Assembly: GCA_903813345.2 (NCBI GenBank)
Contig: CAIIXF020000005.1
Location: 39,621,375-39,685,374, forward strand
DNA: 64,000 nucleotides
From: Owenia fusiformis
Taxonomy: Eukaryota > Annelida > Polychaeta > Sabellida > Oweniidae
Direction: 5' to 3'
A program made the position numbers and the translations under genes. Positions 24,101-63,691 of the stretch are shown here, piece after piece; the first letter of the stretch is position 1; every line of letters starts with the position of its first letter. A model generated the notes under the pieces. It was not told the DNA's origin, did no database searches, and was given only the letters and a program-made list of their open reading frames with translations.

Positions 24101-27100
24101 ATTAGGTGAAAAAAAAGTATTAGGTGAAAACAGAAACCCTATATCAGGTATTGATGCAAACTCACATGAGCAGTTTCTTCTTTGGTTGCTACAATCCTGT
24201 CTTGTGTCTGCTTGCTGAACTCAGCATAGGAATCTTCCTCAAATGTATGTCTGAAAATATTTATATCTATATTGCATCACATTTACCGTTAAAATTGTCA
24301 TATCAAATAAAAAGAAATGCTTTGTTAAGAAATGTGTCTGCTAAAAACAAAAAAACTTTGGAAAGCAAGTGAATCAATGTCTTCATATCAATCAAATGAC
24401 GTCATTAGAGGGTAAGGCAGGAACACACCCAATGGACTGCTATGGAGTTATGCATTTTCTGCAATAAAGCTTCTCCTGTCCAAATATAGACTTACTTCAT
24501 TTCAAACATATCAGTCATGGTCCAGAGTCCCGAGAGAGGTCTACTCCAAGATGATGATGTCAAAGCCAGCCGTGTGTCCTGCAATATATAAATAACAGTG
24601 AGTGAATAAATACTGGGGTATTCAGGTTTTAAAAAGCAAAATAGAAGAAAGGCATATTACATCTATGCTTATTGTAACCTACAGCCAAAACCATAATTTT
24701 ATATAAGTGCAAGAAAATCTATTTATCCCATATAATCAGTAAGGATTCTGATCATATCCTTCTATTTCCCTTTTATTTAGTACATCAGAACACAAGACAA
24801 GACTCGTCCCTTTGCCTTATTTACACATACACACTAAAGTCGCCTGTAAGAAATCTAGAGTAAATAATAATAGCCTACTAAACATACCCTGCTATGTTCT
24901 ACATGGGTCAATGGAGAAATCTAGAGTAAAAACCTACTAAACATACCCTGCTATGTTCTACATGGGTCAATGGAGAAATCAAGAGTAAAATAGCCTACTA
25001 CACATACCCTGCTATGTTCTACATGGGTCAATGGAGAAATCTAGAGTAAAATAGCATCCTAAACATACCCTGGTATGTTCTACATGGGTCAATGGAGAAA
25101 TCTAGAGTAAAATAGCATCCTAAACATACCCAGCTATGTTCTACATGGGTCAATGGAGAAATCTAGAGTAAAATAGCCTACTAAACACACCCTGCTATGT
25201 TCCACATGGGTCAATGGAGAAATCTAGAATAAAATAGCCTACTAAACATACCCTGCTATGTTCTACATGGGTCAATGGAGAAATCTAGAATAAAATAGCC
25301 TACTAAACATACCCTGCTATGTTCTACATGGGTCAATGGAGAAATCTAGAGTAAAATAGCCTACTAAACATACCCTGCTATGTTCTACATGGGTCAATGG
25401 AGAGCTATGACAAACATAAGCTGCCGATTCCTCTGCTGTCTGAAGATTGTACATCTTTAATTCACCAGCGTACGTTCCTAACATCAAAAACTGCTCACAT
25501 GTCTGCAAAGAGAACACAATGAAAAATGTGTGTTTTTATGAAATAGGAGATTTAGAAGACACTCTGTATGAGAAAAATTGGCCTATCGGACATATAATTA
25601 TTTGCCTTCCTTTGGTCCAAAGTGTGTGTAGACATCTACCAGTCTCAACATTGGAGATAAAAAAAAAAAAAAACAGGAAAACATGAGAAGCAAAAATAAT
25701 CTCTCATGACAATGTACACCAAAACTATGGTATTATTAAATTATGAAAATAAAAGTTCTACTCACTGAGAATGTACAGCAGGTAAAGCAGCCATCTTCTT
25801 CAGCATCCCTATATGATCGCACAGGTCGAAACCTACAAGTCAGAAACAGCGTAATTTGTTTATTTGTTTCATACTCTACTTCAATCATAATATAATTAAT
25901 AGATTATAATTAAAGGGAAAATCCCACTGAACAAAAGCAATAATTTGGGGGGAACATGTATTTGCCTCGTGTATGGAGTAATAGCATCAAAGAAATTGTT
26001 TCCTTCTTTGTGAACAAATAAGTTGGTGTCATCAATGTCAGTATATTCATTAATTTCATTTTACACACAATACTAACAACACCCAACCAATTCATGGTTC
26101 ACTTTGTATCATTTTGTGTTAAACTTTCAAGCACAATAATTTTTGTTGTTTTCCGATACACCTAGGTGTTTTGAACACAAACTTGTAAAAATTGCATATT
26201 TGAAAAAAGTATATACATGTATTTCAAAAAATGATTGTAAATCATCTTTCTGTATATTACCTGCTATAAACATATTTTCTGTTCCATCTTCTCCCCTCAA
26301 ATCCTCCATATTTAGGGAAGTACTGAAATCAGATAAAGATTATTTTGGGAAGCAAATTCTAAATAGTTCATGGATTCATTTTGATATGACTAGAGTATAT
26401 CACTGAACATATAGATCAGAAGCAATTTGGTTCAAAAATCAATCCCACAGCAGAGTTGATCACACATATAAATGATAACACCAAAACGATCTAATGTATT
26501 GAGGAATACTTAGGGATGGATTTCATACCTGTCTCCTATAACAACGAGATGTCACATTTTCTGGCGCACAGCTCCTTCTTTTTGGTTCTGGACATCTGTG
26601 GGGTCTACAAATTATAAATCAAGGCGTTTTAATATAGGTTCCTATGGTACTTACCTTAAGGGTGAAAATACTTTCTGTAAAAGAACATTTATCAGAATGG
26701 ACAATATCGAAAAAATAACTGCATATACAGATGTCACGACCACAGACTACGACTCGTAATTTTTTTCCAAAAAAGAGAGAATAACTTACTCTAGAAGGGA
26801 GAATGGTGGACAAGTGCCTACAGGGTTAGAACACATCATGTGTTGTCTTCGAAGATATGAAGTGACAATCTTGTCTAATGATATAGAATATGACTGTTGA
26901 CTGCTGGTGTGACGATGACGTGACGATAACTGGCTGTTAAATTTGATGTTGGAAGCTATCTCAGATTTCTGACGGAAGTACATCTTTTGTTTTGATGGCT
27001 GCACCTACATTGGGTGAGAAATAAAATATTTTACAAAATTAAGTCATACCTTTTGACATTGGGTCACAATAATTCATATGCATGGTATTGCAGCATGTAT

Positions 27101-30100
27101 TTTGTTGAATAAAGTTCTTGAAAGAGAACGACCCCTTGGGAATATTTCTTGAGGATATTTTCAGAGTTAACAGGGAAAAATCTTAATGTTAAACAGGCTT
27201 AAAGTGAAATCTCATGAAATGGACCTAGAAGTGCTATAAATTGATAAGCTTGGTGCCAAGTATTTCATTTAAGTAATTGTACAGGAATAGATACTATTTA
27301 TTGGATTATATTCTGTTTTTTCAAGTATTAACACTAAACGCATTTTTGGACATTTGTAATTACTACAGTACCTTAGCATTGATATTTGAGACTGGGGTTT
27401 TGTGACTGATGATGTTGACCTTGATAGAGCCAGGGGTGCCAATACTGGAACCAGGAGAGCTTCGTAACGTGGACTGAGATCCCTGGCTTGCAGTAGGGGT
27501 GCTACGAGGTGTCACAGCTAATCGATTCTAAAACAGAAACAGAATCATTTCACAGAGTTTTTTTTTCAATATCTGTCACAATTTTAGAATTTGAACACAT
27601 TTTTACATCTTAAATAAATAATTTGATATGATATGGCAGATAGACACTTCATAAATGTGCACTTAATCTTACCAATTTAGGTGTACTAGGGGCAGGGGTA
27701 GAGTATATATGTGGACTAGATGGGTGTTGTATAGGTGGAGACACTGGTGCTGGGAGGTCAGCCTCTCTTTGAAGTGCACTGGCAGTTTCCGAGTACCCTG
27801 AAATAAATATACATAGAAATATTCTTATTATGACACTCATTTCTGAAAAACATGTGGGAGACATTTTCGTAGATGTTCAAGGAATAATTTCTGAAATATA
27901 ACAAACGTTGTAAGGCATTCTGTGCCAAATATGTAAGACTACGATTGAACAAACTGCTTACCTTTCTGCAAGAGGTGATCATGCATGAGTTGAAGCAGTT
28001 CCTTCTCTCTGTATATGATCCTGGTTTGAGCTACAACATCATCCTGCAACATACATACAATAACATGTACAATAACGCATACAATTACATGTACCATAAC
28101 ACAATACATGCATTTCTAGTGTCGAAATACTTAAGATATCAAATGTTCAACATGTCAATATTCAACAGTCCCATAAGTCATGACATATTAATATTTAACA
28201 CATTAATATTACTTGATGCACAGTAGTATCAAGTGCCCATTCATATTCACTCAAGAGATTGGGATATTTGGAAAAATAAATAAATAGCATATCATTTGGC
28301 CTACCTTTCTAATTTGTTCTAATGTTGCTGCAAAGTCCGCATTTTGTGGCTTTCCCGATACTCTCTCCAGTACAACATTAGCATATTTACAAAACTTCAC
28401 ATGTTCCGCTCTCTTGTCATGCAACACTGGTTCTTTCATTAATACTGCAACATAACAAACATTTGTGTAAACGTATATACAAATTATACTTAATTTTCAT
28501 GTGTTATATAAATCGTTATGCAATTTTTTCATCAAATGTCTATATCTTTCATTTGTAACGGTAGCCAGTAAAACCTGGATAGATTAAATCCAAGTGTTTA
28601 CTACCATTACTACCATTGGAATTCAAGTAATAACAAAGCATTAAAATGCAAAATGTCAACACCTGCCATTTGTTACATATGCTGTATAATTTGTTACATA
28701 CACCTTATTATAGACACTGAAAACTGTCCACAAACAAGGCACAGACGTGAACAATATCGTACCTAAAACACAGCATTGTGGTCTTGTTGACCAAGAAAGC
28801 AAGATGGCCGCAGAAAAGTTAATCAGCTCTAGAACTTATCACTCTGTAACATTTGAACGGTTTGGCTGGAAACCTGTAGACAAGTCTTGAAAGTGAAGAT
28901 TTTAGGACAGAAAATCCAAAATGGCCACCTTAAAATTTACCCAGAATGCCCAAAAACCAATCAGTTCTTGACGTTGATATGTAGAAACATCCCTGAAAAT
29001 TTCAGATGAATCCCTCAAATGGTTTGGCTGAAAATCTGTAGACAAGTCTTGAAAGTGAAGATTTTAGGACAGAAAATCCAAAATGGCCACCTTAAAATTT
29101 ACCCAGAATGCCCAAAAACCAATCAGTTCTTGACGTTGATATGTAGAAACATCCCTGAAAATTTCAGATGAATCCCTCAAATGGTTTGGCTAAAAACCTG
29201 TAGACAAGTCTTGAAAGAAGATTTTAGGACGGAAAATCCAAAATGGCCACCTTAAAATTTACCCAGAATGCCCAAAAACTAATCAGTTCTTGACTTTGAT
29301 ATGTAGAAACATCCCTGAAAATTTCAGATGAATCCCTCAAATGATTTGGCTGGAAACCTGTAGACAAGTCTTGAAAGTGAAGATTTTAGGACGGAAAATC
29401 CAAAATGGCCACCTTAAGATTTACCCAGAATGCCCAAAAACTAATCAGTTCTTGACGTTGATATGTAGAAACATCCCTGAAAATTTCAGATGAATCCCTC
29501 AAATGATTTGGCTGGAAACCTGTAGACAAGTCTTGAAAGTGAAGATTTTAGGATGGAAAATCCAAAATGGCCACCTTAAGATTTACCCAGAATGCCCAAA
29601 AACTAATCAGTTCTTGACGTTGATATGTAGAAACATCCCTGAAAATTTCAGATGAATCCCTCAAATGGTTTGGCTGGAAACCTGTAGACAAGCTGAAAAG
29701 TGAGACGCCGCCCGCCCGCCGCCCGCCAAGCTGACTACAATATTGGGTTTCCGGACAACTCGGACCCAGGACAACTCGGACCCTGGACAACTCGGACCCA
29801 AGACATCTCGGACCCAAGACAACTCGGACCCAAGACAACTCGGACCACTTTTTGAAATTTTTGATTTTTATCACTATATTTGGTTTTAATTATTTTTTAT
29901 GTTTATTTTGACATATATTATATATTGTGAATTCATATAGTATGTTAATTTGATGAAATTGTTTTAAATTAATGTTTTGATGAGAGTTAAGAAGTAAGAA
30001 ATTATTGAAGCTAAAGACCCAAGACAACTTGGACCACTTTTTGAAATGATGGTTTTTATCATTGTATGGGGTTCTAATTTTTTTGTTTAATGTTTTTTAT

Positions 30101-33100
30101 GACATATATTATATATTGTGAATTCATATATTGTGTTAATTCGATTAAATTGTTTTAAATTAAATCAACTATAACTTCAAAAAGTGGCCCGAGATGTCTC
30201 AGGTCTTCAGCTTCAATATTCTCTTACTGGTCTTACTTCATAACTTTCATCAAATAAGTCAAATTAAAACATTTTCATCAAGTTAATACAAAATATGAAG
30301 TCACAATATATAATATATGTATTAATTTTCATAAATGCAAAAATAAAACAACACATAATGATAAAGATCATTATTTTAAAAAGTGGTCCGAGTTGTCTTG
30401 GGTCCGAGATGTCTTGGGTCCGAGTTGTCCAGGGTCCGAGTTGTCCTGGGTCCGAGTTGTCCTGGGTCCGAGTTGTCCAGTTACCCAATATTGTACCTTT
30501 TGTTAGGTACGATAAAAAGTTGAAAACTATAACAATATATCACCACCTCTGGTGATGACATAATGACCTTCATTGAACTATGAATATCAGAAAGTAGGAA
30601 TGGTTTAGGTGCTTACATTGCAATTGCCCATTATTGTAGAGAGGTAGTTTACTTATGATCTGTCTAACCATTTCATTCCTAGCAAGCCCCATCAATGCCT
30701 TACAGGCCAGGGCACGAATACTATCTGCATGCGTGATGGGACTTCGTGTGTGGAGTAACTTTAACAGCACCTACAGTATTCAATATACATTATAAATAGT
30801 TAATTCTCATGTGAATCAATTTTGAAACATTTTTAACTCAAAAATTAGAAATTTCTTGGGCCACAAGACAGGTTGGATTAACATATAACAATAACAATAA
30901 ATAAGTGCTGAAGACTTCTGTAATTGTGCTGAAGGAAATTTAATGAGTTGACCTGCTGCCCACCCACTTTTACAGGTATATTTTCTACAAAAGTTATTCC
31001 ACAATGTGAAATGTGTTAGTGAAATATATAGTGCTAATCTTGTCACTATAGGGCTGGGTCGTGTCTCTGCTAACTGGGATACTGTTATATGTCTTACCAT
31101 GATTCCATTGTTACTCCTGAAAGCTTCCCACACACTGGCTAAAACATTGCCATCTGCCTTGAGACTGGACCGCCTCCTTGCGCTTCCCCCACTGGACAGA
31201 CATTGATACTTCCCCATTCCACTAGAATACTATAACACATGACAGAACATAAAACTGGTTAAACCAAGGAAATACTGATGAAATGCGAGTTGAATCTGAT
31301 TGTTACACAGTCAATTCGCAACTTGAGTTGCATAATTTTTACTTTCGAATAAATATAGAAAAGCTGTATACCTATTTACAACCCTCCAAAATGACTAAAA
31401 TGTGTATTTAAAAAAAAAACGACCTGTCATTAGCTCTATAAGAGAAGGAAAGAGATATAATTTGATTTTCTAAATAAAGAACCTTTTGAAAAATACTGTA
31501 AATTCAGTGTACATACCCTAGTGATTGGACCACATACACAATTCATTATAACATTAAGAGCAGCTTTCTGTACATCAGGGTCAGGTATAATCTCCCCCTC
31601 AGCAACCCCTAACAGTACGCTGCAAATAAATAAGGGTTTTATAATGGGAAATTTTCGATAAACGGCATATTGCTTCTGTTAATGCAAAAATTTCTAGGAC
31701 AATTGGTATTTTATATAGAGTTAAACAACTGTTGAATATCAGCGGTTTTATGAGTATCTATTATTCACTTATATATTCCCATCTTATATATGGCAATGTT
31801 ATTTGGGGTGAAACATGTAGTTCATTAAATTCCCTATATCTTGTGCAAAAGAAATTCACCCGCATTGCAACAAACAGCGATTATAGGGCTCATTCCCTAC
31901 CATTATTCAAACAGTTAAACCTTTTGAATATTTTTGACATACACAAACAACAGAAATGTTTATTCATGTATAAATGGATAAATAAGCTTGATAACTACCA
32001 GAAAATTTTTCCTAACTTCTTCAAAATGGTCCAGGCGAGACATGATCACAATACCAGAAACAAGGATTCTTATGATAAACCTAAAGTAAGGACGAACTAT
32101 GGCATTTCAATGTTAACTTTCACGGCACCAACAATTTGGAATCAATTACCAAACAAGATTAAATCTTCTCGAAGTGTTCACATCATGAAAAGAGAACTGA
32201 AAAAGTACTTTGTCAATAATTGATTATCATTCGTATACTTTATATTTTGGGCTCTATGACACACAATTCATTTACCATCCATTACAAGCATTTGCACACA
32301 AACAGATCCCCCTCTGTTTCTATGTAGGCAACTTACCACCCTGTCGGGAATATACACAATTTGTGTCACCCGCTCATTGTATGTATTTCAAAACTTAGCT
32401 TACTGAATAAATAAATAATAATAATAATAATAATAAAGGGTTTATCTCGAGGGAAGTATATGAATTTCAGCAATCCCAGCAATACAATACAAATACTAGT
32501 AAATAGATATTTACACTACAAAGACAAGCAAACACTACTCTTAAGGGAATTGCCTCTATAATTAGGTTTGACAAGTTTGTGAAAGTAACACATAGAGGGC
32601 CTTGATACAAGATTACGCTTATTATACCTTATAGCGGGAGTTGTAAGGTTCTCTGGAACGGGGACAGAGTCACAGAGACACAGCTGAGCACGAGGCATCA
32701 CTGTACACACAGCCAGAACGTCAAGAGCACTTCTTATGGTCTCTGCCCTGAAAATATATTTGGATACTTTTGAAGGCAGAGTACAGGGACTAGAAAATGG
32801 AATATTACGAGGCTTTTATATTACAATACAATATTACATGAAACCTGTATGTGATGAACACATATTGCTGTTATCTGAAGAGTTAAGTATAATGTAATAG
32901 GTTTTCAATAGAAACAGGTATCATTCAACATATTTTCTTCACGATGTCATTGCTTATAATAATATTTGTTTCTTTAATTCCCATTGAAAAAAAATCTCAA
33001 TGTGCCCCAAGAAGATCAAATAATTGACTTTAACATGTTTTTGTTTGCAATATCATATACATCCAGGTCCTGAATGACCCTACTTATACTCTCATACTTG

Positions 33101-36100
33101 TGAGTGGAAAATGTACTCACTTCCCAGTATAAGCATTCCACTCAGGGGTGAGAGCGATGAGTTGTACCAACAACTTAACACCCCCTAGCTTGAGTAAGTC
33201 ATCCACAGGTTTCCAGTGCGCTCTAACAGGCAGGTTGTCTAGCAACAGTTCTATGTTGTCCTGTACTGTCTGACTTGAAAACTTTGCAGCCTAAAACAAA
33301 ATAGCATAAAGTAAGTGAAAAAGCTGTTATGTGTTATATCAAACATGTATCTTTTAAACATGTGAAACCATTCATAGTACAGTAAACTTTTATATAATCT
33401 TTAATTGAGATTAAAAAATTAATTGAGAAAAAGTAAATCATATAAATCAATCAAATAAAAAATGCTTGCTTGGTTTATGCATAGCTATGGCCCCCATATG
33501 GGAAATGTTTCTTTACATAATTACAAAGCCTGTTACCTTAAAAGGAGGTGTCTCAGAGACATGTTGAGCACCTGTATCCCTAGCCAGCGACCGTCTTACT
33601 ATGTCTGCCTTGATTGAAAGATGGGCCTCAAAGTAACGTTTCAATGCAACACAAACATGGCGTGCAGCTTGACGACTGGTGAATATGGCATCTTCAGTAA
33701 TCATAGTGTCTTGGTCGTCAACAATGAGAATCTCAAGTGTGCTTATCTGTAATACAAACATGGAATCTATATAATGAGAATGGCATCCACGTTATAAAAC
33801 AAGGCATTAATATGACAAAATGTCAATACCTGGGAAATTATTGCTCAAAACAAGATACAAATAAAAATGATTTTTGATGTTTCCAAAGATTAAGTGAATA
33901 TTTGGTATGACAAAAAATTTCATTCTTGTGAATTTTCAGACAATTAAATTTAATGAACAGATAATTACCAATAACCCAATACTCACAACATTATAGAGCT
34001 TCCTGAGTCCATCCTTCATGTCGAACAGCTCAATGATAACTCTGAACATAAAGGAGGTGCTGAAGAACATGGTGGCATGGCAACGACCTGATTCATGAGA
34101 ACACTCCAGTAACCAGAGAACATAGTTGACAAGATCTGAGAGAATGTGATGAGGTAGAAGGCATACCTGAAATAGATGGCTCTGATACAGGCGTGCACAT
34201 ATAAGACCTTATGGGCGTTGAATTGAAAGGTTTTCTGGTACAAGGTGTTGTGAGGTTCTCTGGTACAGAAACCAGCACAGAAACACATGGAGATGTTTGA
34301 TACAAGATTTCTTAAGGTATAAAATATTATTTAAGTTTACAGTCTATTCTTGAAACATTGTGAGACAAAATATTACATTTGAAGAATAGAAGCTGGGTTA
34401 ACATAATATGGATATACACTGTACATGTGTATTTCCATATATGGACATATTGCTATTGAGACAAATACTATACAGATAACAGTAAGCAGTATTAATTCCA
34501 ACAGAACTCTGAAACATCTATGAAATCCCAGTACATACCCTTTCCATGGCATCTTCAAAGTAAGCCAAGTAGTACAGACACATTGAGACTCCAGTAGCAG
34601 CCACTGACGGCCTGTAGACTTGGAGAAGTTTCTGGACTCCACCCAGGTTGATGAACTCTACAGTGAACTTCTTGTGGCACAACAGAGAGGCTAGGTACTG
34701 GAAAATTGTCAAAATAATGTCAAAAATCAAATGAGTACATGTACAGGTTTTGTACTGCCAGGCAGACATTGGGATGGCCGAATCTCCCACATATGTGCCA
34801 TTTTAACAGCATGCTGTACAAGTGGTGATCAATTAGTAATGGTTACTTTTTTACAGTTACTTATTGAACGCCTCTTGTTTATAGACCATCTCAGTAATTG
34901 GTGAGACTCTGAGCCAAAACTATGTTGAAAAAATCATTTCTCCACGGAATCTAAATACTCATTTCATGTTCTGCTCTTCCTCAGCTTGTCCAATGAGAGA
35001 GCTGCTCTCATGTCTAAAGTATTTTACAAAGTATTTAAAAATAAAGAAATTATTTGATTTCGACAAGCCTGTTCCCCCATACTAAGAAAAACATAAGAAA
35101 GACTTCAAAATGATGTTTACCTTTAATGCCTCAAAAGCCAGCCTGACATCTCTGTTCTTAGATAAATCTATAGTAGAAGATCAGATCCATGGCTTTCTTT
35201 TCAAATACATGGGTCAGTAACTGAAACAATACAACATAGATAAATCTATATAGTAGAAGATCAGATCCATGGCTTTCTTCTCAAATACATGGGTCAGTAA
35301 CTGAAAAAATATAATATACAACTGCAGTGTTCACAAAACACGTTCATACTCCATACCATTGGGAATTAAACTGCCATTTATTAAGAGCATACTTGGCGAA
35401 GATCGATGGTAACGTTTCCAGAAAATATTTGTCTGAAGGTGGAAAATTCCATCAACATGCTTGACAAATGACTTCCATCTTGGAAAAGGATTGAAACTGA
35501 AATAAAGTTATGTATTATGTTTAATTATGGATTATTTGTTTATCAAGTTTCTAGCCAAGAGGAGCTAGCCAGGATCTAGGCTTAAATCCTGGTCTAGTTA
35601 TTTTTTCTTTGATAAACCGAATAAAATTCACATGCTCTTAAAGGTTATTGTATGAGGAAATATAATATAAACACATGTATTGTTGAATTTTTAAGTCAAC
35701 CCATTGGTCTATAAAATGAGTTCAGCGAACACTGATTTAGTTATCTAAAGGACTTTGAAGTTGTTTGCATCACATTTGAAGTGCTTTACTGAATTTTTGA
35801 AAATAAATTACATCGATAAATAGAATGTTCAAGAGTAGAATTAGTTGGAAAAATAAGTTTTAATCTAATCTGAAAATACAGGTCAAGCTATACTGAAAAT
35901 ATTATTATGCTAGACACTTGATTAAAATATTTCAGGTCCTGGTAGTATATAAACACACCTTTTTTAAATTACATTTATTGTATAATTAGACATATACCTA
36001 AATGATCGAACACTCATAACACTACACTATACCACAAGCCATACACTAAGATTATAAGACAATGAAGCTCTACATTCTTGTGACCCTGGTGGTAAATATT

Positions 36101-49880: not shown

Positions 49881-49884
49881 TAAG

Positions 49885-50904
49885 CACACCCGGTGATCGT
49901 GAATATGGGACGGAGGGGGGGAGCAGGCAATTTCTGCTAGGAAATTCAACAAATCTGGAAGATTTATTTTTTCAAGAAAAAGTTTACTATTGAATTGCTA
50001 AATGGATAAGCGCACGGTATGGTAGAATATGTTAGGTTTTCTGGGATTTTTTCTGAAACGATACGCATCTAAGGTATGAGATCTATTAAAAAAGGCGCAA
50101 GGCCATCAACAGGCACAAATCAACGTTTTTGCTATAAATCAAGCAACAATGGTCTGGACGACCTGTATTAAACACTTGTAAGTGATGTTATCATAACTAA
50201 ATTAATGTCATTGCTGAATTTATAAAATAAGTTTCCATATGCGAAATAAAAAATAATCGAAAATAATGAATTTGGGACGGAGGGGGGGAGGGGACGGAGG
50301 GGGGGAGCAATATGTATATAAGACATGATTAGAGATGTTTCGCGACTTTAAGTCCTTTTACTCCAAATGTCCCCATTTTTCAGTCTCCAGGGGTATATCA
50401 TCCAGTTTCTTACTAAGTTAATGAGTTCATTTTTCAAATACAAGAATTCGTGTGAAGTTGTTTCACTTTATAGAATTATTGCTCCCCCCCTCCGTCCCCT
50501 CCCCCCCTCCGTCCCATTTTAATTATTTTCGATTATTTTTTATTTTACGTATGGAAACTTATTTTATAAATTCAGCAATGACATTAATTTAGTTATGATA
50601 ACATCACTTACAAGTATTTATTACAGGTCGTGTAGTCCATTGTTGCTTGATTTATAGCAAAAACGTTGACTTTTGCACGTTGGTTGCGTTGCGCCTTTTT
50701 TAATAGATCTTATATCTTAAAAGAGTATCGGTTGAAAAATAATCCTAGAATACCTAACATATTTTATCATACCGTGCGCTTATTCAATTTGCAATTCAAT
50801 CGTAAACTCTGTCTTAAAAAAATAATTTTACCAGATTTGTTGAATTTTCTAGCGGAAATTGCCTGCTCCCCCCCTCCGTCCCATTTTCACGATCACCGGG
50901 CGTG
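49885..50904. mobile_element. Foldback element with ~425-bp inverted arms
   Basis: Arms 49885-50311 and 50477-50904 are reverse complements over nearly their whole length, separated by about 165 bp. The outer end is CACACCCGGTGATCGTGAA; TAAG flanks both sides (49881-49884, 50905-50908). Each arm has G7 tracts (GGGACGGAGGGGGGGAG) at its outer and inner ends. I find no coding capacity; open frames in it are chance. Confidence 0.9.
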
Positions 50905-51343
50905 TAAGTTACAATATTATATTGCGTTAATGGGTTATGGTTGTGCCATAATTTGAGTGAATGAAAATGCAATGAAAAACCATCCTGAATTTACCAATTT
51001 TAAGATGAAGATAGAGCACATGGAATCCTTCGAATCGAGATGAAAACATTTTGCAGAAAAATATTGTTTTATATTAGGGAGGGGCGCTTAATAGGCCTTT
51101 TTGTTATTGCTTGAAGTAAAGTATAGTGATTACGAGGTGCCTGATTACCAATCAAATACAGCATTTGACTTTATTTCTTTTGATGAGAAATATTCTTATC
51201 ACCCAATATTATTGATAGACAAAATTAATGATAAAACTTGATCAACTACTTAAAATAGCAATTGAGATAAAGATATATTTTGTTTAAACAAATGTTTTAA
51301 CATATATACTTCATTTATAAAAGCTGGGGCGACTTAAATCATC

Positions 51344-54300
51344 ATGTCTGATGTGGTTATAGAGCAGCCTGGACTACAGGGCTCTCCCGTAGGATGGATA
51401 GAACAATTTGCAGATCTCGAGAAAGTCAATGTTATACAAGAATATGACACAGGTAACAAACAATACTATCAATTTTTCAATTAAATGATTTCTTGTTTTT
51501 GTCTTCAGTACACAATCTGACACAATGTAACCAGCTTATATTCGCGAATGCAACTAACGGCTGTCGGCTACCGGATTAACCTACTATTTCATGACAAATT
51601 AAATTCATTTAAATATGAATGGAATAGTGGCAGGTACTATTCATATTTAAATGAGTTCTCCATAAAATAGCAGCTTAATCCGATAGCCGACAGACGTTAG
51701 TTGCATTTGCGAATACAAGCCAAGTATAACTAAATTTTTCCTTTTAACATTTTCACATTTCATTATAGATTTATTTCAAAAAGAGGTAAGATACAAGGGA
51801 AAGCCTGGAACAAATTCTAGTGTTATGTTAGAGCCAGAGTTGGGGTTTAACATGTTCGTATCTCTTGTAGAGATTGGCCCAAGAGTCAGTATTTGCATAA
51901 GAGTCTACATATATGTTCAATTCTCACGTAGGAGTTTTAACATGTTATTTCTCTTGCAGGTGGTAAGGAAAAGCCTTTAACATGTTCTATTCTCTTCCAG
52001 GAATCGAGGAGGAGCCTTTAACATGTTCTATTCTCTTGCAGGTGTCAAGGAAAAGCCTTTAACATGTTCTATTCTCTTTCAGGTGTCAAAGAAGAGCCTT
52101 TAACATGATCTATTCTCTTGTGGGTGTCAAGGAAAAGCCTTTAACATGTTCTATTCTCTTTCAGGTGTCAAAGAAGAGCCTTTAACATGTTCTATTCTCT
52201 TGCAGGTGTCAAGGAAAAGCCTTTAACATGATCTATTCTCTTCCAGATGTCAAGGAAGAGCCTTTTACATGTTCTATTCTCTTTCAGGTGTCAAAGAAGA
52301 GCCTTTAACATGATCTATTCTCTTGCAGGTGGTAAGATAGAGCCTTTAACATGTTCTATTCTCTTGCAGGCGTCAAGGAAAAGCCTTTAACATGATCTAT
52401 TCTCTTCCAGGTGTCAAGGAAGAGCCTTTTACATGTTCTATTCTCTTGCAGGCGTCAAGGAAAAGCCTTTAGTATGATTTATTCTCTTGCAGGTGGTAAG
52501 GTAGAGCCTTTAACATGTTCTATTCTCTTGCAGGCGTCAAGGAAAACCCTTTAACATGATCTATTCTCTTGCAGGTGTTAGGGAAGAGCCTTTAACATGT
52601 TCTATTCTCTTCCAGGTGTCAAGGAAGAGCCTTTAACATGTTCTATTCTCTTGCAGGCGTCAAGGAAAAGCCTTTAACATGTTCTATTCTCTTCCAGATG
52701 TCAAGGAAAAGCCTTTGATCTATTCTCTTGCAGGTGGTAAGGTAGAGCCTTTAACATGTTCTGTTTTCTTCAAGGAGCTAAATGATTTCAGGGCTGTGTT
52801 CAGAAATAGACGTTAACATGTTGTATTCTCTTACAGGGGCTAACTGCTTCCAAAGCTGCCAGTGTTGTGTACCAAGCTGGAGACACAAGACTTTCAAAAT
52901 CACAGATGAGAATGAACAAGAAATACTCAAAGGAGAGGATGGTATGTATTTTATGTTCAGTCCCCTCAAAGAGTTTGGCAACATTTGGTCTACTATTGAG
53001 ATATTTCTGAAAGCCTATTTTTGTTAGCTGATTAAAAGAAAACATCAAAGACATAAACATCTTAATAAAAGTGAGGTAAAATGAAGTTTTGAAAAGTCAC
53101 ATGAATACCAAAAAATGCATACAACTCTTGTAAGTAATTAGAGCAAGCCACACCTGAATTATTCAAGTAAACCCTTAGAATCGTTAATAGGGTATTTCTT
53201 AATCAACTAATTTCACTTCATTAATTTGTTTTTTTTAGTGGAGAATGACTTTTTTGGAGACTCCATGAAGTCTTTTAACACATTCTTATTCTGTTTTGTG
53301 TTCTACTTGTAGAGACAGAAGGAATATTCTGCTGCTGTTCTAGTGTCATCCTTGGATGTTTTGGTTGTGGTCCATCATTAACTTATGAATTCAAAGATCA
53401 ACTTGAACAAAGGGTAGTACAATGGATTGTGTAGCATCCTCACAATAAAATTGAATTATATCAGTAACTTTAAGATTCACTCGACAGTGTTTTGTCACAA
53501 TAATAAACACTCAATTTTGACAGTTTTTATAAACCAAAAATTATTGTCTTTAATCCAGAACTTGGTTGTAGGTTTTGAAGCTGACCCATCCAATCCGGTG
53601 TTGTGGCAGAACAATTGAGATGTCAGGTCCAGATGGCAATGTTTTGGCAGCTGTTAATAAAACGTAATTCATGTAGGGTAGACCTCCAATCATAATACCA
53701 AAGTGGGTTATATGGAGAGGCATTATCAGGGATCCAGGTTATATGAGAGTATAATGCCTAAAATTTATAACTTTTTTCAATTCAATTTCAAACCAATTTC
53801 ATTACATAAATTATACTGTACACATACATATGATGTTTGTACTTTGGTATCTTGATGTGACCCTTAATTGCAAGTTATTTAATAATGCAAGGTGAATATG
53901 TATGTCTATCAGAATTTATGGAAATAACTAAAACCATTGTATGTATTGTATATTGTGATTGTATGAAATAAATTATTAGTATTTAATTAAAACATATTTT
54001 AAATCTTCCAGTTTTTCCATATGCAGTGCATTGGACTTTGACATAGTAGACAATGATGGTGAAACAGTGTTCAATGTTAGTGGCCCATCCTGCCTGTCCT
54101 GTGAGTGTGGAGGAATCACATACAATGTAACTACAGGGTGAAAGAATTTCCCAAACCTCTAATTTTGGAGTTTTCTCAATTGGGATGAAAAAACATTTTT
54201 TAAAAAGAATCTCAGTCATTGATGTTATCTTAATAACAACTATTTTAAATTATTTAACACACTAGCTGCTCAAGAATATACATGAAGATTCCATCATAAT

Positions 54301-55082
54301 TGATAAAAAAAAATCCATAATTAGAGGTTTCCAATTTTTGTGTTGGGCTTTGTGAATGGAATATCATGCTACATAATGACATTTAAAAATGAAAGAAACC
54401 GTGATAATGAAATTACTAACACTGAGGACTATTTTTAGGTGAGGAAGGATGACAATGATGTTGGTGAGATCCTAGTGAGCTGGGATGGACCATGTGGGTG
54501 TTGTTGTTGCGGATGCTGTGACTGCGCCATGTGGAAGTTTGAAATCAAATGTAAGTAAAAATATAGAAATTAAGTGTTTAACTAACTCTGTTATTGAACA
54601 CTTTGGGAAAGATGGCTTTATGCTATAGCATAGGAGCAATGATTTGATGAGTGTTCAGCTTTAAAGGACATATAGTAACTTGATGACACACTTTTGAAAA
54701 AATTAATTTATAACCTCCTGCAGAAACATATATTGGATGGATTTAATAGATTATACCAAGCCAAGACATTTTTACTGTATTTTTGTTTATCATATTCAGG
54801 TCTGTAAATATTCTTTCAGGTTTTAAAATTAGGGAAAGAAATTGGAATGATTACAGATTTCTACATGTAGCATCCATGGAATCATCCAGTAAAATTTGAT
54901 CCCAATTTTCAAATTTTGCAAATTTTCACCAAATATTGCAGAAATCATGTGACAAACAGTAATTTCAACAACTAATTTATGTTTCAGTTCAACGAGACAT
55001 GGATGTCTACCAAAAGTTGATGATGGTTGGAAGTGTCTTCCTGATAGAAGTGATGGCGGAGAGAATGAGGGAGGGAATTTAA
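51344..55082 (+). CDS. Phospholipid scramblase-family protein (PLSCR-like)
   Basis: Six exons: 51344-51452, 52837-52941, 53313-53430, 54012-54126, 54439-54550 and 54988-55082; 217 aa with all phases consistent. Family features in order: a Cys-rich strand (CFQSCQCC, KTFKITDENEQEIL); GIFCCCSSVILGCFGCG; LDFDIVDNDGETVFNVSGPS; a run ending DNDVGEILVSWDG and a Cys cluster; then MDVYQKLMMVGSVFLIEVM, which corresponds to the Ca-binding/C-terminal membrane helix (human DLDVKMKAV...GACFLIDF). Scramblases sit in membranes and have been linked to Ca-dependent lipid movement. Exon 1 (PGLQGSPVGWIEQF) resembles the usual N-terminal strand, but the next conserved segment (TGFETNNKYEI-like) is not found; a 41-bp satellite fills that intron. 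The donor of exon 3 (GTAGCA) is weak and was chosen because it alone restores the frame. Confidence 0.87.
51534..51720. mobile_element. Palindromic MITE, ~187 bp, in scramblase intron 1
   Basis: Left CTTATATTCGCGAATGCAAC and right GTTGCATTTGCGAATACAAG are inverted repeats. The complementarity continues inward (GGCTGTCGG...TCCGATAGCCGACAG, and a central TTCATTTAAATATGAAT). No coding sequence. Confidence 0.8.
51838..52790. repeat. 41-bp tandem array resembling the scramblase exon 2 acceptor
   Basis: About 20 units of CCTTTAACATGTTCTATTCT followed by CTTGCAG|GTGTCAAGGAAAAG. The polypyrimidine tract and AG match the true exon 2 acceptor (TTAACATGTTGTATTCTCTT, then ACAG, ending at 52836) with two mismatches in 24 bases. 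It fills most of intron 1. Confidence 0.92.
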
Positions 55083-55122
55083 ATAATGGAATGGCGGACA
55101 GAGAGGATGTGTAAAACAATAG

Positions 55123-55128
55123 AATAAA
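55123..55128 (+). promoter_or_regulatory. Polyadenylation signal of the scramblase-like gene
   Basis: AATAAA 41 bp after the stop codon implies a very short 3' UTR, ending just before the mariner remnant that starts at 55181. Confidence 0.55.
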
Positions 55129-55180
55129 GAGTGCAAGAGAAAGAATGTAAAGATTGGACATATCGTATATTGGTTATATA

Positions 55181-56176
55181 CAGGGTGTCCAAAAAAAAAC
55201 AGGACCGTAAGAAAGTTGAATAACTCGGTCAATTTTGCATATTTCGCCTTGAAATTTCAGAATTATTTTGTTCATTCAATGTGAATTTTGTTGTGAAAGT
55301 TTGATAATAATCTACCAATTGAGTCAAAAACTACAGCTCCTTACAAAACATGCCCCAAATGTGCAAATCTCATCTTTATGCACAATTCAATCCGGCGAAC
55401 AAACCTGTTGATGATCCTCCTACACACATGTCTTTCTGAATGGACAAGTTTGTTCCAAGAACAATTGCTATTGGGGCTTACATCCTACTGATGAAGTGTT
55501 ACAGCATCCATTGCATTCTGAACAATGCTCTCCCTGGGTGGCAATGAGGAAACATGGAATCAGCAGTCCCTTTTGGTTCGAAGGTGACTGGGGACTTGCT
55601 ATCACCATGAACAAGGACCAGTAAGTTCTCACCAAGTTTTGGGGGTCACTAAGCACCAGAAGGGACATCTAAGGAGATAATTAAGCAGTGGTTTCAACAA
55701 CCCAATACCATCCCAACACTGCAAATGATATGCTGAAATGGTTTAGGCAATGCTTTGGTGGTCAGCTCATCAGTTGCAGAATGCAAACCATATATGGGCA
55801 GCTCATTCGCCTGATCTAAATCCCCCAAATTTTTGTCTTTGAGGATTTCTCAAAGCCAATGTGTATACTGACAGGACCTTAACAATCTTAAGAGAGCAAT
55901 AACTACCCCAATATTTACCATCCATATTAATATGTATAGGTAAGGGTCATTAACAACTTTGTTCGCAGGAACTCGTTTGTGCATAGAGAGAAGTGCCCAC
56001 TTTGAGCATGTTTTGTAAAGGACTGTAGTTTTTGACACAATAAACAGATTATCATCAAACTTCTAGAACAAAAATCACATTGAATGAACTAATTAATTCT
56101 TAAATTTCAAGGCAAAATATGCAAAATTGACCGAGTTATTCAACTTTCTTACGGTCCTGTTTTTTTGGACACCCTG
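55181..56176 (+). mobile_element. Degenerate Tc1/mariner-type element
   Basis: About 80-bp TIRs start CAGGGTGTCCAAAAAAA and end GGACACCCTG, flanked by TA. Plus-strand fragments of an IS630/Tc1/mariner-type transposase are readable across frameshifts and stops: WVAMRKHGISSPFWFEGDWG near 55540, and WAAHSPDLNPPNFCL near 55795, the conserved SPDLNP motif. The element is dead. It begins 53 bp after the scramblase polyadenylation signal. Confidence 0.9.
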
Positions 56177-58722
56177 TATAACTGAAATTGAGAATATACA
56201 TTGAGAGATATTGCATAAGATAAAAGTGAAGAATGTATTTACATAATATACATAAAATACATGCACATATTATCAAGTACATGTATTTCTTAATCCAAAA
56301 TTCATGAAACATGTTTTCACAAAATAAACAGTCAATTGAAAACTATACCCTTTGCATTTGTTTGAATTGGCTTCTTAAAAGACAACTTCATCTGTGTTAG
56401 TTAAGAAATAAACTCTGCACTCTAAAATCCAAAAAAGGAATTCACCAGCACCCTAAAAACAACTACATGTACATTCAACATTAGTAAACTTCAAAATTGC
56501 TTAAGCGTTAAACAATATATTTGCTTCAAATAAGCTTATTAGCCTTTTCAGAATATCAACATCATAGACATAAAGACATTACATATTCAAAGAGGTTAAT
56601 TTTTGCTGTTGCTGATGTTTTGCAACTTGGATATATAATTACATTTTCTTTTTCAAGACCTCCAACTCCACAAGGCACCAAAATGTTTAACTAACTATGA
56701 ACCATTCTGCCATTTGGATATGTTACATAACTTATATAAATATTTTGTTATCATGTCGATTTTAGATAATTTCATTAGGTATTGTGTGCAATGTCTGACT
56801 TCTATTACTGCGTATTGTCAACTCATTCCAAATAATCAATATGGAGCAATATCAATGATCAACACATCAATTAGAGAACAACTAATATATTAATCATTCT
56901 TTGCTTTCCTTTCTGATAGACATTGATCTCCGTAGATTATGTTATAATTGTCAAAGATCTGAATTGTTTATAAATTATAATACAGTACATTATATTCCTA
57001 TTAGTACGTAATAAATGATAGCTTTGGCACGACTTTAATGTCTAATGTTTTGCTATTTAAGATTACTCTCTAGCAACAATGAAAATATTCGTCAGAGAAG
57101 AAAATCTACGAATCATTATAAAATAATTTGGTGCATTTGTATTGCAGTATAGATAAGGTACATTCACAGTTATCCTGAGCGCAGAATGTAGCTAAAAGTG
57201 AAGATGATACTCTATTTTATGAAGCGAAGTCGAACAAATGGAAAGAATTGAAAATGTTAATGTGCAATAGAAAAACAAGGATGGACTATTTGTTCACTCA
57301 ATAATTTTGATTTACCTTAACTATGTTCTGTTTACCAGTAAATGGATTAATTTCACTAATATATATTCTTGAAACTACTCAGACAGCAATGAAAAATTGC
57401 TCATTAAAATCTGAAATACAATAGTAACTATAAGATTATCACAGAAGGTTTAAAAGCTCCTAAACAACAAACACAAATATCTTGAGGCTTATAAAAGAAT
57501 GGATCTGCCTAATGTTGATATTAAGGATGAAATTTTGAATGGATTTCAGTAATGTATTAGTGGCTTTAGATAATCCATTTTATGGCAATGGGGGAAGAAT
57601 TAACATTAAATACTCCACTTTTTGTTACCTGTAGTTTTAACATTACATTTACAACTAAACTAGGTAAGTTAATAATAGATAATTAATAATTTAGTTAAAG
57701 GTATATTTATTTTGAAATTTATGGACAAAAATGCAACATTTACATTTAAAAATAAAGTAAAATAATTGAAGTGAAAGTGACATTTATTCATTGATATTTA
57801 TTGCTCAAATTTTAAAACCAAACATGTTTCTAACTAGATGGTATAACTGACTCAGAGGTGAAATTGGGTGATGTAGCAGTTGTCATAGTAACTGGAAATA
57901 GTTCTTTGGAGATAATTACAATGCCAGAAAATTCAAATGTATCATCAAACAAAGAATGATCATCAATTATAACTCAATAGTTTTACCTCTTAGAATTAAA
58001 ACTCAATTTTGCATAATTGATGATAACTTAGCTATGTTCTGTTTATAATTTGACAAGATTCAATAAATTGTGGTTTATTGTTAATATTTTTAATTCCTTT
58101 CAGGTCCACTTCCTTGCTTCAGGAAGAATAAAATATAGGATTTCAAAAGAGAGGAACCTGAAAAAGGAAATAGTCTATTAAATTCAGAGTAACTCTACAA
58201 TCACATCCTTTAAGCCCATGAGGAAAATCTATAACCACTTAGGAGACAGTTATATTCAATTATCTCAGAAGTTTTTAATCAAAAAAAAGTTCATAAGTCA
58301 GTTGACATAATTGATCCATTTACTTTGCACAGCCTCCAGTAAATGTCATGTCAATATTAGAAATTATGGTTTTCTTGTACGCTGAATTTTATGTGATGTT
58401 ACCACGGAGATGATTAAGGGCGTCAACATTACTGAAGGAGGTAACAGTTGGAGGCAGTTCTTTAAAATACAATGGTTGCTCTTATCTACTAATTCAAAAA
58501 TAATAGAAGCTAAAGAACGATTCTAATGTCAGTTTGAACTGGAATGTTCATAAAGGATGTAACAACCGACACATGATCAAAAAGAGGCATACTAAATCGC
58601 TATGAAAGGATACAAACAAAAAGAGGATAATCAGAATTTCACATCTGAATTTTCATTAAAGACAACTTAAAAACAATCAGAGAAAAAAAACTTAAAGAAA
58701 AAAGTCCATCGTCAAAATTCAG
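56177..58722. other. Intergenic, AT-rich, nothing recognised
   Basis: No reading frame, TIR pair or tandem array that I can support. An acceptor-like TTAATTCCTTTCAG near 58104 may begin a 5' UTR exon of the following gene. Confidence 0.5.
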
Positions 58723-59499
58723 ATGTCAGGAGCACACAATGAGGCTAAACCTGCAGTGTGTAAAGCAGTTGACTTTTCAACAGAACTCCGTACATATAGC
58801 AAAGATGTACTTCCTTTCTCAAAAAGATTTGAAATTGAAAATTGGTGTGATGATTCAAGAAAAATCCCCAAAGAACGCTACTTTTTACCATATATTGACA
58901 AAAATGCACAAAATAAAAAAACAGTTAGAAACCCAAAACGTAGCCGTAGAGTACAACCAAGACCATCTATTGATTCCTCATATGCTATGTCAACAGTAAC
59001 CTCCGGAACATACAGCACGATAAGTGAAACTGAAACTGAAATCACATCACATGAAGATGGACTTCAACATATCAAATACCCAAAGAAGTCACGACTGAAG
59101 AAAAAATCCCGGGTACCAGAGTTGTCATTGATTTTGGAACAGGTTGAAGATAAAGGAGTCAGTGACACACGCAGAGTTATGACACGCCATTGGTGCAATA
59201 CTCACTCACTTAAACATGTAAGTGATTGAGGGAAAAATGTGTTATTTTTCATTTAGATATGGATGATCGCAACACTCGGAATAACCCACAACAGTTTTAA
59301 CTAGGAAATGATGGAAATATCAAATACTCCTGAATATCGAACATACCACCCTCCATTTGCAGAGCTCCAAAATCTAGAATATCTTTTTTCTCTTTTGATG
59401 GGAAGGAGGCTCGGATTCTGGGCACCTGTTGAGGAGGATGCTAAAATACCAAAGACAACCAATAAGACACTTTTATTGGAAATGACCTTGGGTTATTAA
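58723..59499 (+). CDS. Unrecognised 229-aa protein, two exons
   Basis: Exon 58723-59217 is an open frame from an ATG (MSGAHNEAKPAVCKAVDFST) to a strong donor, CAT|GTAAGT. An 87-bp intron ends at AG 59303-59304, and exon 59305-59499 continues in phase 0 to a TAA, followed by AATAAA at 59682. The protein is hydrophilic, with no signal peptide or membrane helix. It has a Trp-containing N-terminal block (FEIENWCDDSRKIPKERYFL), basic Ser-rich middle stretches (KTVRNPKRSRRVQPRP, KKSRLKKKSR), a Ser/Thr-rich segment, and a C-terminal aromatic block (YHPPFAELQNLEYLFSLL, RRLGFWAPVEED). I do not recognise the family. Translation without splicing would stop 4 codons after exon 1. A possible upstream untranslated exon begins after the acceptor near 58104. 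Confidence 0.62.
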
Positions 59500-59681
59500 T
59501 CTAAACCATAATTATCTAGAAATACCCTCAAGATAAAGATGAGTTCAATGTAACTTTCAAATTAAAGGAGAAATGCATGTTGTCGATATGATAACTTATA
59601 TTGTACTCATGCAAAAATACTTATTTATGTCATGGGCTTTCAACTAGAAAGCCCGAGTTTATGTACATGTGTACCTATGAG

Positions 59682-59687
59682 AATAAA
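59682..59687 (+). promoter_or_regulatory. Polyadenylation signal for the 58.7-59.5 kb gene
   Basis: AATAAA (in gaataaataa) lies 183 bp after the stop codon of the two-exon gene. Confidence 0.5.
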
Positions 59688-61185
59688 TAATAATTTTGAC
59701 ATTGCACATGTTGTGTATCTCATGTAACCCAACACTAGGCATTTGAACCCACTATTAATGAGTCGGATCATGCATTAGTTGTATTGTATACAGTAAGAGG
59801 GAGGTCAATGGATGACTTTTTTTATATAGTTACACAATTAAATTGAAATGGACATGAGCATTACTTCAGTCAATTGTAAGTTTCTATTTGTCCCAAAATT
59901 ATTGCGATGGAAGGACAGACGTGGGCAAAATTCAAAGAAACTGACTTGGGTTCTACAGTAGAACCATCTCCTCAAAAAGTTTTGATTTGGTCAATTGATT
60001 AGTGTCTCAGGAACATTTCAGTAAATAGTTTCATGATCAAAGAATGCGCATCAATAGTGTCAGATTCAGTCATTAATTATACATGAATAAAACATCTTGT
60101 GTTTGAACAGATGCATGCCTAGCTATGTGTGAAACTTCATCAAAATTACAGTACATTAAGAAGTGTATAAATTAAAAATAACACGTAGTTCCATTTTTAT
60201 TCAACATTTTTTGCAAAACTTTTAACACAAAATGTAATATGGTTTACATAAGATGCGCTACTAAACAACACCAAAATATGTTTCCTGAATATGCAACATC
60301 AACAGGTCTTTTTCCATTTTCCAATGACTACTATTTTCTGGTCATCTTACAAAAGGTACTCGATCACTGAGTTGTTAAGATTTGTTTGGGTTACCTTTTC
60401 TGGCTCACCCTGAAGTTCAAGCATATTCACGATATAAAGTATAAAACAAATTTCTAATCTGACATGCACTATTATCTAGACATCCTGGTTTCACGATTTC
60501 TGCATACTTAAAACTCAGCTATAGATATGAAACATAGCACTGGATACATGCTTTCAGAAAACGTGTGTTGAACGAGACTTATCGAAAGATAGACAGATAA
60601 CAGATTTTGTTTTTGTCTGTATTTTAGAAATGAACTCGTGAAGAGATTTCTCATACACTAAGAAAATATATTCCTTCATCTTCATCTTGAAGAATGCATA
60701 TCTTGAAGAGTATATTAGAAGGATAAATATACAATCTATTATTGCATCATTTGATATTACACGCTTTATATCAATTTGGATTTCTGATAAAATAAAACAC
60801 AATGCAGTATTTCAATACATTGCATCATATCAGTCACATAATAAGTGTCAATGTATAAAAATCTAGTGTATAAATAGAAAAATAAATTGTACATCATTGC
60901 AAAAATTACAAAAAATGTTCATCAGTCAATCATCCTTTAATATTTTGAGAGTTTTACAATGGCCCCTGTATACATTGTATAGTATATATTTACATGGGGC
61001 CTTTAACAGATTTTATTGCCATCTATTCATCTATGAATAAGTACTGATCGTTTAGCCCTGATTTAAATGTGTTTATCTAAACATACAACATTTAACACCC
61101 CCTAGTACAATCATAGCAACAAACATACATTTTTTCTACAAAGCATTTTAAAACTACACTATCACTAAAATGTGTAGATGTGAGG
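59688..61185. other. Convergent intergenic / EOGT 3' UTR region
   Basis: The unknown gene (plus) and EOGT (minus) converge here. TTTATT at 61011-61016 (AATAAA in EOGT sense) is one possible EOGT polyadenylation signal. Nothing else is recognisable. Confidence 0.4.
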
Positions 61186-63691
61186 TCAAAGTTCATCTTT
61201 TGTGTCTTCAGAATATTTATGATTCCTAGCCTCAATAAATGACGGATGGTTTCTCACATGATCTGCTGCATTGTGTACCATTCGCATAAATTCACGAACG
61301 TCAAAAGCATAGTTTGTAAATTTTTTATGAGCTCCTAGTTGCGGATGATGTCCCTGAAAAAATGAAAAAAGAAATGTTTTATACAATATGAGGAGAATAA
61401 TCACAATATAAATTATATATTATCCCAAATATATCAGATTTTACTTAAAAGGCTGCCATTAGTTTGTCCCTGTTTTCCAGATTCATTAAGAAGCAGATTA
61501 CACACAAGAACATATACACTGAAGTAAGAATTCAATCTCAGTTGTCCACATGATCCAACGGCTAGCATAGATAGCACAATAAAAGTTTGCATCCTTATTG
61601 ATTAGTAAGATTTTACCTCATCCTCCTGGTCTAGTTTGTCTATGTTCTCCCATGTCATGTACTTCACTCCCCTCAACCTGGCCAGGTCCTTGTAGCAGTT
61701 AGCGTCATCACAATTATACCTAAAATGCAGAGGTTGTCATATATTATTCATCACATACTACTAAAAATGTTTAAAAATATGAAAATCTTCTCCCATGGAA
61801 TTCAAACTTACGCTTCAAAGAGAACTCCCCAATCAGGCAGGAAGAGACCATGCGTAAGTCCTGACCCATGCATGCCTATGAATATATCACTGTTGTGGGT
61901 GGATCTCAACTGATCAGGAAATTTAAATGTTCTCCTGAAATAAATTTATAAAAAATACAAATGAATTTCTGTTCATACATGGTCTTACTAGTAGGTTGTG
62001 AGTCTATTACAGTAAATGAAGGACCAAGAAACCAAAGAAGGATCAACAAAAATTCTTGAAAAAATCTAAAAGATGGCTTGCTGACGATTAAACATGTTTT
62101 GGTATCTGATAGAATTAAAGCATTTGTAATTGTGGCTCATAAGAATGGATGTTTCAGCAAAAATTCAAAATACAAACATTCTGTCAAATAACAAACATCG
62201 TAAAACACAATAATACATGATGGGATTAAATGTTTTTGAGGATTAAAATGTTCATCGGTTGTTTAATTAGGATGTCACTCACCAGTTATAGTCTACTACA
62301 TTGACTTCATATTCTCCCACACTCTTCATGGCAGACACCAGCTTAAATAAAATAAAAATTCAATTTCAATATGATAAAATTTCACACAGTCATATTTCTA
62401 TAAAAATCAGCCTTACAAATACATTCTGGACATCACCTTAAGTAAATGAACTTAATAATATTCTACGCAGAAGTGGTCAAAGAAGTGGTGAAAAAATAAA
62501 GGACAAAGCCATACCTCTTCTTGATTGAGGAACTTCCTGTACTTAGTACTCCGTGACAACAATGTGATTCTAATCTTGGACTTCTGAAATATTATTACAA
62601 AATAAACCTTTATTAATATCTCTTGATTCATGACCTGAAAAGTGGAACACCTCCATAAGTGGAACACTTTTCAGGCTCCTATAACATACTGACTTACTCT
62701 TGATTCTGCAACAACTCCCAAGTGGAACACTTTTGAGAGTATCTAAAAGTGTTCCACTTACATAGTTTTTACTGCAAGTCAATGGCTTTCATAATCCTAA
62801 TCACACCAAAGTGTTCAGCAAGATTTATTGTATCATTGTCATATTGTATCTGATAAAATATAAGTCACAGTCCCACCCCTATGTTATTCCACTATCTGTT
62901 TCCTTAAATATATTCTATTTCTAATTTTTTAGATTTCTATAATATTTTATAATGGCCTACCAGTGGGCCTGTCTGCTCTACATCCAGTCTGTGTAACACA
63001 TGTTGTGAGAAAGCCCTAAATAAACTGGTACCATAGCAACCAGGGACCTGGCAACAACATATTTCAAATACACAATACTATTTCATACGCACATAAAAAT
63101 TTGATAATTAGATTAAATCTATAAGGTTCACAAACTGAGTGAACAATTGTGAAATTGACCACTTTTTCATGAGTATATGCATCAGACTGTCTCATTATTG
63201 AAAATACATGAACTATACCGGTACTTGTTTACATTCTTTTACAACATTCAAAATTTTTATTTTACAATCCATATACAAATTAAGATATGAATGAAATAAA
63301 CACTTACTAATGGCATGTTGTAGTAGAGGCCGCTCCTCATCCTGGCCAGCAGGGAAAACATGCCTGACTTGAAACAGACCTAGAATGAAAAATATGCCAG
63401 ATTTGAAACAGACCTAGAATGAAAAATATGCCAGATTTGAAACAGACCTGGACATGCACAAGGCTAACTGGGCAAATTGTTTTTGTAATATATTATTAAA
63501 TCAGATATTATCTTACACATGATTCCATTGTAATCAACTTTTTCTCCTCTGACAATCACTGACAATACTTTAAATATCAAACACTACAACATATGTACCT
63601 TTTTGCCATCAAAGTCTTTTAGATGAATCACTGGATAGTCAGTAAATGCCTTCCAAGTGTCAGAGAAAAAATCTCCATAACCAGTATAACT
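61186..63691 (-). CDS. EOGT: EOGT, EGF-domain-specific O-GlcNAc transferase (3' half)
   Basis: Eight coding exons in order: 63599-63691, 63308-63379, 62961-63047, 62515-62583, 62283-62341, 61812-61934, 61617-61719 and 61186-61353; 257 aa, all phases consistent. The enzyme transfers GlcNAc from UDP-GlcNAc to Ser/Thr of folded EGF repeats (Notch and matrix proteins) in the ER lumen. It belongs to glycosyltransferase family 61. Landmarks: [58 protein letters not shown], the conserved active-site region [36 protein letters not shown] and [19 protein letters not shown]. It ends in KDEL, an ER-retrieval signal (HDEL in human, from memory). The signal peptide and N-terminal half lie beyond the right edge. 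The acceptor of exon 63308-63379 is triplicated in the adjoining intron. Confidence 0.97.
62640..62780. repeat. Dispersed repeat family C (copy in an EOGT intron)
   Basis: Contains AGTGGAACACCTCCATAAGT, repeated AAGTGGAACACTTTT and the inverted AAAAGTGTTCCACTT, ending TAGTTTTTACTGCA. Confidence 0.55.
63361..63455. repeat. 34-bp triplication spanning an EOGT acceptor
   Basis: The motif TTGAAACAGACCTAGAATGA occurs at about 63369 (across the exon start 63379 and its acceptor) and 63403, with a third, diverged copy near 63437. In gene sense each copy is intron end, AG, and the first ~18 exon bases. Confidence 0.85.

Follow-up and report, generated by a model that had tools for sequence, protein, structure and literature searches.

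Tandem multiplication of intron-exon boundaries has been described in lancelets, in which such arrays, known as mirages, occur at Adh3, at the globin genes Gb6 and Gb9, and at the troponin C and PGBD5 genes, and leave splicing undisturbed, with normal mRNA detected by RT-PCR (PMC3087553, PMC3902484). Several other systems are related to mirages to varying extents. In human genes located in segmental duplications, TRF-type arrays likewise overlap exon-intron boundaries, although in this case, the repeats, examined among recent paralogues only, alter splicing and can make new introns (PMC2812944). In flies, new introns can arise by tandem duplication (PMC2891723), and intron gain of this type similarly involves local duplication at splice or proto-splice sites, but places a new intron inside an exon (PMC2891723, PMC4974935), whereas in the arrays analyzed here, it is an existing junction that is multiplied. 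Finally, introners carry the same unit into many genes.

The arrays that we compared with these systems were found in the annelid Owenia fusiformis, originally in a single window, a stretch of 64 kb comprising bases 39,621,375-39,685,374 of contig 5 (CAIIXF020000005.1), and then in exons sampled across the genome. As in the lancelet mirages, minisatellite-like tandem copies of the intron-exon boundary are present at both the 5' and the 3' boundaries of exons, with units of 32-159 bp, and one of 259 bp, among the measured arrays, compared to ~10-160 bp in lancelets, and as in lancelets, many of the copies retain the AG or GT dinucleotide (111 of the 113 decoys, that is, additional copies of the splice site, in Owenia). 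All the mirage features that we examined at the sequence level are found in the Owenia arrays, which are therefore best read as junction-spanning minisatellites of the mirage kind that occur in an annelid on a genome scale. Accordingly, the sequence-only reading of this window, which knew of no described system of this kind, has to be corrected on this point. Neither mirages in annelids nor a genome-wide rate came up in a literature search, which is weak evidence of absence. The two sets of data differ in what they provide: for lancelets, normal splicing was demonstrated by RT-PCR, whereas the Owenia arrays, known from one genome assembly, come with a numerical frequency, about 5% of the sampled junctions, and with an excess over introns.

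All four junction arrays of the window were recovered by TRF at the places where they had been reported (Table 1), and reading in the sense orientation combined with homology identified one real splice junction per repeat unit in each of them. Two of the arrays belong to DCAF1, and one each to a scramblase gene and an EOGT-like glycosyltransferase gene. DCAF1 was identified by alignment to the solved human DCAF1 (PDB), whereas the other two genes were assigned through Pfam: the assembled exons of the plus-strand gene at 51-55 kb match Scramblase (PF03803, 5e-15), and the minus-strand gene at 61-64 kb matches Glyco_transf_61 (PF04577, 4e-14). The product of the latter gene carries a C-terminal KDEL, as expected of EOGT. 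The original claim of four arrays at genuine splice sites of three unrelated genes is thus confirmed by TRF, sequence and homology. The unit sizes of 34, 41 and 61 bp were also correct, and that of 78 bp needs a refinement: the copies of array 2 are spaced by 80 bp, and the figure of 78 bp reflects a 2-bp deletion in the inner copy.

Table 1. Junction-spanning arrays and adjoining exons in the 64-kb window (coordinates are positions within the window)
Feature	Position	Strand	Description	Basis
Array 1	24869..25403	-	61-bp unit x 8.8 across donor of DCAF1 WD40 exon	TRF, sequence, exon homology
DCAF1 exon (...THVEHSR)	25374..25502	-	Innermost unit of array 1 forms its 3' end	Sequence, human DCAF1 match
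Array 2	35159..35318	-	x2, acceptor and first ~60 nt of DCAF1 exon	TRF, sequence
DCAF1 exon	35121..35220	-	Joined to inner copy of array 2	Sequence, DCAF1 homology
Array 3	51846..52836	+	41-bp acceptor module x ~20, with diverged flanking units; ends at real acceptor	TRF, unit list, sequence
Scramblase-family exon (GANCFQSCQCCVPSWRHKTFKITDENEQEILKGED)	52837..52941	+	Uses innermost acceptor of array 3	Sequence; PF03803
Array 4	63355..63449	-	34-bp unit x 2.8 across acceptor of EOGT-like exon	TRF, sequence
EOGT-like exon	63308..63379	-	Joined to innermost unit of array 4	Sequence; PF04577

The unit of array 1 consists of the last 31 nt of the DCAF1 exon, the donor G/GTATGT (the slash marks the junction) and 30 nt of the intron, and the decoy GT is intact in all eight copies (8/8). 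In array 4, the acceptor is combined with the first ~21 nt of the EOGT-like exon, with the decoy AG intact in both copies (2/2). Array 3 has a more complex relationship to its exon. Its unit includes a branch-point-like TTTAAC, a pyrimidine tract and CAG/G, and the regular 41-bp copies occupy positions 51936-52770, ending ~66 bp short of the acceptor; a diverged 62-bp unit connects this regular part to the real scramblase acceptor (52835-52836), which itself carries a diverged copy of the module. The placement of array 3 at a splice site is accordingly valid for the homology, which covers the acceptor, but not for the regular array, which stops before it.

Array 2 appears as a split exon. In this assembly, a stop codon is met from either acceptor. 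The outer copy preserves the first half of the DCAF1 exon and the inner copy the second, and the two halves are in frame only with the removal of the 78 nt between them. A non-exhaustive reading of array 2 by eye revealed no canonical GT-AG intron with a length of exactly 78 nt. The region is present as a single copy in the assembly, and the stops could result from a base-calling error in TATATA, from a heterozygous allele, or from an unusual or nascent small intron. Between the two DCAF1 arrays, the window also contains two 16-bp arrays (GACAACTCGGACCCAA and its reverse complement; 29754-29846 and 30385-30478) that lie ~540 bp apart in inverted orientation, one of them adjoined by a 162-bp x 5.2 satellite; the inverted pair resembles the ends of a mobile element.

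The genome sampled comprises 498 Mb, with twelve large contigs of 32-62 Mb, in agreement with the twelve chromosomes of Owenia fusiformis (PMC9539403), and its annelid origin is indicated by three exon matches above the cut-off to PF16915, the C-terminal family of the annelid erythrocruorin linker, which cluster on contig 6. Searches of the genome for Pfam exons encountered, unsought, two further junction arrays that stood out by their repeated Pfam hits: 18 copies of a 159-bp unit at the edge of a kinesin exon (C2:23266359-23269174) and about five copies at the edge of an SNF2 exon (137 bp x 4.8). Both of these arrays were excluded from the main sample, for which 311 Pfam exon hits of five families were sampled in random order to give 140 exon-centred stretches (192.6 kb) with 205 exons from 93 gene clusters. 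Twenty exons of a sixth family, UCH, were used as a replicate, and twenty random 2.5-kb stretches (50 kb in all) as the background. With the same array threshold applied to all sets (period 25-300, TRF score >= 100), 32 arrays were detected in the main sample, 11 in the UCH replicate and 11 in the random background. Each candidate was read, and a splice junction was found to be spanned by 15 of the 32 arrays in the main sample and by 6 of the 11 in the replicate, so that 21 of the 450 junctions of the 225 Pfam-defined exons (4.7%) lie within an array; the remaining 22 of the 43 arrays have no called junction. Tandem arrays of all kinds are abundant, at 4.8-13.7% of the DNA examined. Those spanning junctions are a general phenomenon of the genome, as had been proposed from the window, rather than a coincidence of that window. 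In one short UCH exon (L180; G000 C4:3647167-3648498), each edge is occupied by a different array, with 81 bp x 8 at the acceptor and 54 bp x 11.7 at the donor, so that ~48 bp of the exon lie outside the arrays. Another array, with a 33-bp unit, covers a HECT stop codon and 3' UTR and includes no splice site (L073; G000 C9:6666371-6667387); it was left out of the junction-array counts.

The internal anatomy of the arrays is uniform with respect to the position of the genuine splice site, which in every array is the innermost copy, adjoining the intact exon, because any tandem duplication across a junction leaves one intact copy at the exon. In none of the measured arrays does the exon-derived part reach the length of the unit, as would follow from the multiplication of one junction-spanning unit. 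The position of the junction within the unit is uniformly distributed (KS P = 0.39), and both donors and acceptors have been multiplied. Unit length is free modulo 3 (10, 9 and 7 arrays in the three classes), and therefore, the copies are not translated.

The splice dinucleotides of the decoys are nearly always preserved, and the intact ones include those of the more diverged 32-, 33- and 41-bp arrays. In the inner decoys, the exon-derived part has diverged by 2.6% and the intron-derived part by 3.3%, that is, equally, and thus, the decoys behave as neutral DNA. Signs of conservation of the exon part, or of lower conservation on the intron side, were rejected as artefacts, which arose because the alignment was ungapped, the genuine copy used for comparison is under constraint and the outermost copies are truncated. 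When scored with a simple weight matrix, 66 of 102 decoys equal or exceed the real site, so that strength does not explain the choice of site, and by computation, use of the decoy instead of the real site would produce a frameshift or a premature stop for 99 of the 102 intact decoys.

The sequence-only reading also implied that arrays are enriched at junctions. We compared the observed counts with uniform placement of each array within its own stretch, with positions wholly inside exons barred and with every array collapsed to one unit because array expansion inflates the intron coverage. Under this procedure, the 21 junction-spanning arrays among 43 compare with 8.2 expected from the flanking introns, a 2.6-fold excess (exact P = 2.5e-6), which bears out the enrichment for the sampled exons of this one genome; the main sample alone yields 15 spanning arrays against 6.5 expected, and the UCH replicate alone 6 against 1.6 (P = 0.002). 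Measured against the random-genome background, 13.6 arrays are expected for 450 junctions when all arrays are counted (P = 0.04) and 5.1 when only those with more than two copies are (P = 1e-7), so that the excess ranges from 1.5- to 4-fold relative to this 50-kb random sample. An excess over the neighbouring introns is therefore likely, with a size that varies with the background, the random sample amounting to only 50 kb, and the Pfam-based ascertainment of exons could add to it. In present coordinates, raw array coverage as a function of the distance from the junction is flat at ~5% over the intron, without a peak at the junction, and is lower inside the exon; it was rejected as a test of the excess, given that expanded arrays inflate the intron coverage. 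Biased G+C content was likewise dismissed as a cause, the differences being too small (37.5% in spanning arrays, 35.7% in non-spanning arrays, 36.5% in random arrays and 34.5% in the random genome).

These observations are probably explained by ordinary local tandem duplication that is tolerated at exon edges, as exon definition picks the nearest site. In such a scenario, a local tandem duplication of 30-260 bp of DNA would happen to take in an exon edge, and the array would then grow by slippage or unequal exchange, with its inner edge keeping one intact copy and the splice site attached to the exon. The splice site closest to the exon would win through exon definition, and the outer copies would be handled as intron and drift neutrally. 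Selection would remove duplications lying wholly within coding exons, and those at exon edges and in introns would survive. We infer that duplication and expansion proceed by ordinary minisatellite processes and that exon definition selects the innermost site; exon-defined genes are known to prefer the sites closest across the exon (PMC9225289). With its position over the HECT stop codon and 3' UTR, array L073 is more in line with tolerance at coding edges than with a mechanism based on splice motifs. Pure tolerance, however, predicts a density of arrays at junctions no higher than that in introns, and the 21 of 43 arrays observed run against this prediction. The excess over 8.2 thus implies that something beyond pure tolerance contributes, be it mutation bias, better survival or ascertainment.

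The excess, which recurs in the UCH replicate by itself, is also the principal argument for the view that junctions in this lineage act as mutational hot spots, with tandem duplication seeded there by Py-AG or donor motifs, R-loops or nucleosome edges. Nevertheless, we consider such seeding unlikely. The junction is positioned uniformly within the unit rather than at the breakpoints, the arrays affect donors as well as acceptors, one array (L073) sits on a stop codon and 3' UTR, the random-genome background reduces the excess to 1.5- to 4-fold, and coverage in present coordinates shows no junction peak. The specific suggestion of the sequence-only reading that Py-AG and donor motifs seed the duplications is not supported, in view of the uniform junction position and the involvement of both site types, as well as of L073 and the 22 arrays that have no called junction. 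It is similarly doubtful, if somewhat less so, that junctions in this annelid lineage are preferred sites of duplication, an exon-edge mutational route by which thousands of them would carry decoys with fast turnover.

Selection for duplicated splice sites, as back-ups or as sources of isoforms, would account for the preservation of the decoy dinucleotides even in the more diverged arrays, but is hard to reconcile with the equal divergence of the exon and intron parts and with the damage to the protein that nearly all decoys would cause if used; we regard it as very improbable. Still less credible is the possibility that the arrays represent introns in the making or mobile units resembling introners. 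Tandem duplication involving proto-splice sites is indeed a described route of intron gain (PMC2891723, PMC3087553), and the half-exons of DCAF1 array 2 come into frame only without the 78 nt between them; yet, each unit originates from an exon edge of the gene in which it lies, an intron is already present beside each array, and the reading of array 2 by eye, non-exhaustive as it was, encountered no canonical 78-nt GT-AG intron. Unlike introners, the scramblase array and both DCAF1 arrays had no matches elsewhere in the genome, each retrieving only itself, and a dispersed mobile element was rejected on the grounds that these three window arrays are unique. Tolerated local duplication thus remains the preferred explanation, with the qualification that, in a single assembly, aberrant transcripts and assembly errors may occur at the arrays.

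If about 5% of all junctions carry decoys that are as strong as the real site and would break the protein, the Owenia genome amounts to a natural experiment, on a large scale, in how nearly identical sites are told apart by the spliceosome, and also offers abundant raw material from which new introns and isoforms could arise. The arrays extend mirages from lancelets to a protostome and suggest that in genomes of this type, many exon edges may be mis-annotated by gene predictors.

The exon searches also yielded several further repeats. At G000 C9:8171898-8173571, the start of a UCH exon recurs about 12 times at 150-bp spacing within one open frame of 666 aa, and this array, of junction or coding type, remains in frame. 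At least ten copies of a myosin-head exon (profile ~25-84), 0.3-1 kb apart, are located at G000 C9:37986009-37994334 and probably represent a large cluster of alternative Mhc exons. Finally, an identical-scoring HECT fragment (profile 234-284, in a 161-aa frame) is found in at least 17 places on many contigs, for example, at C1:25257117-25257257, as if carried by a recent mobile element.
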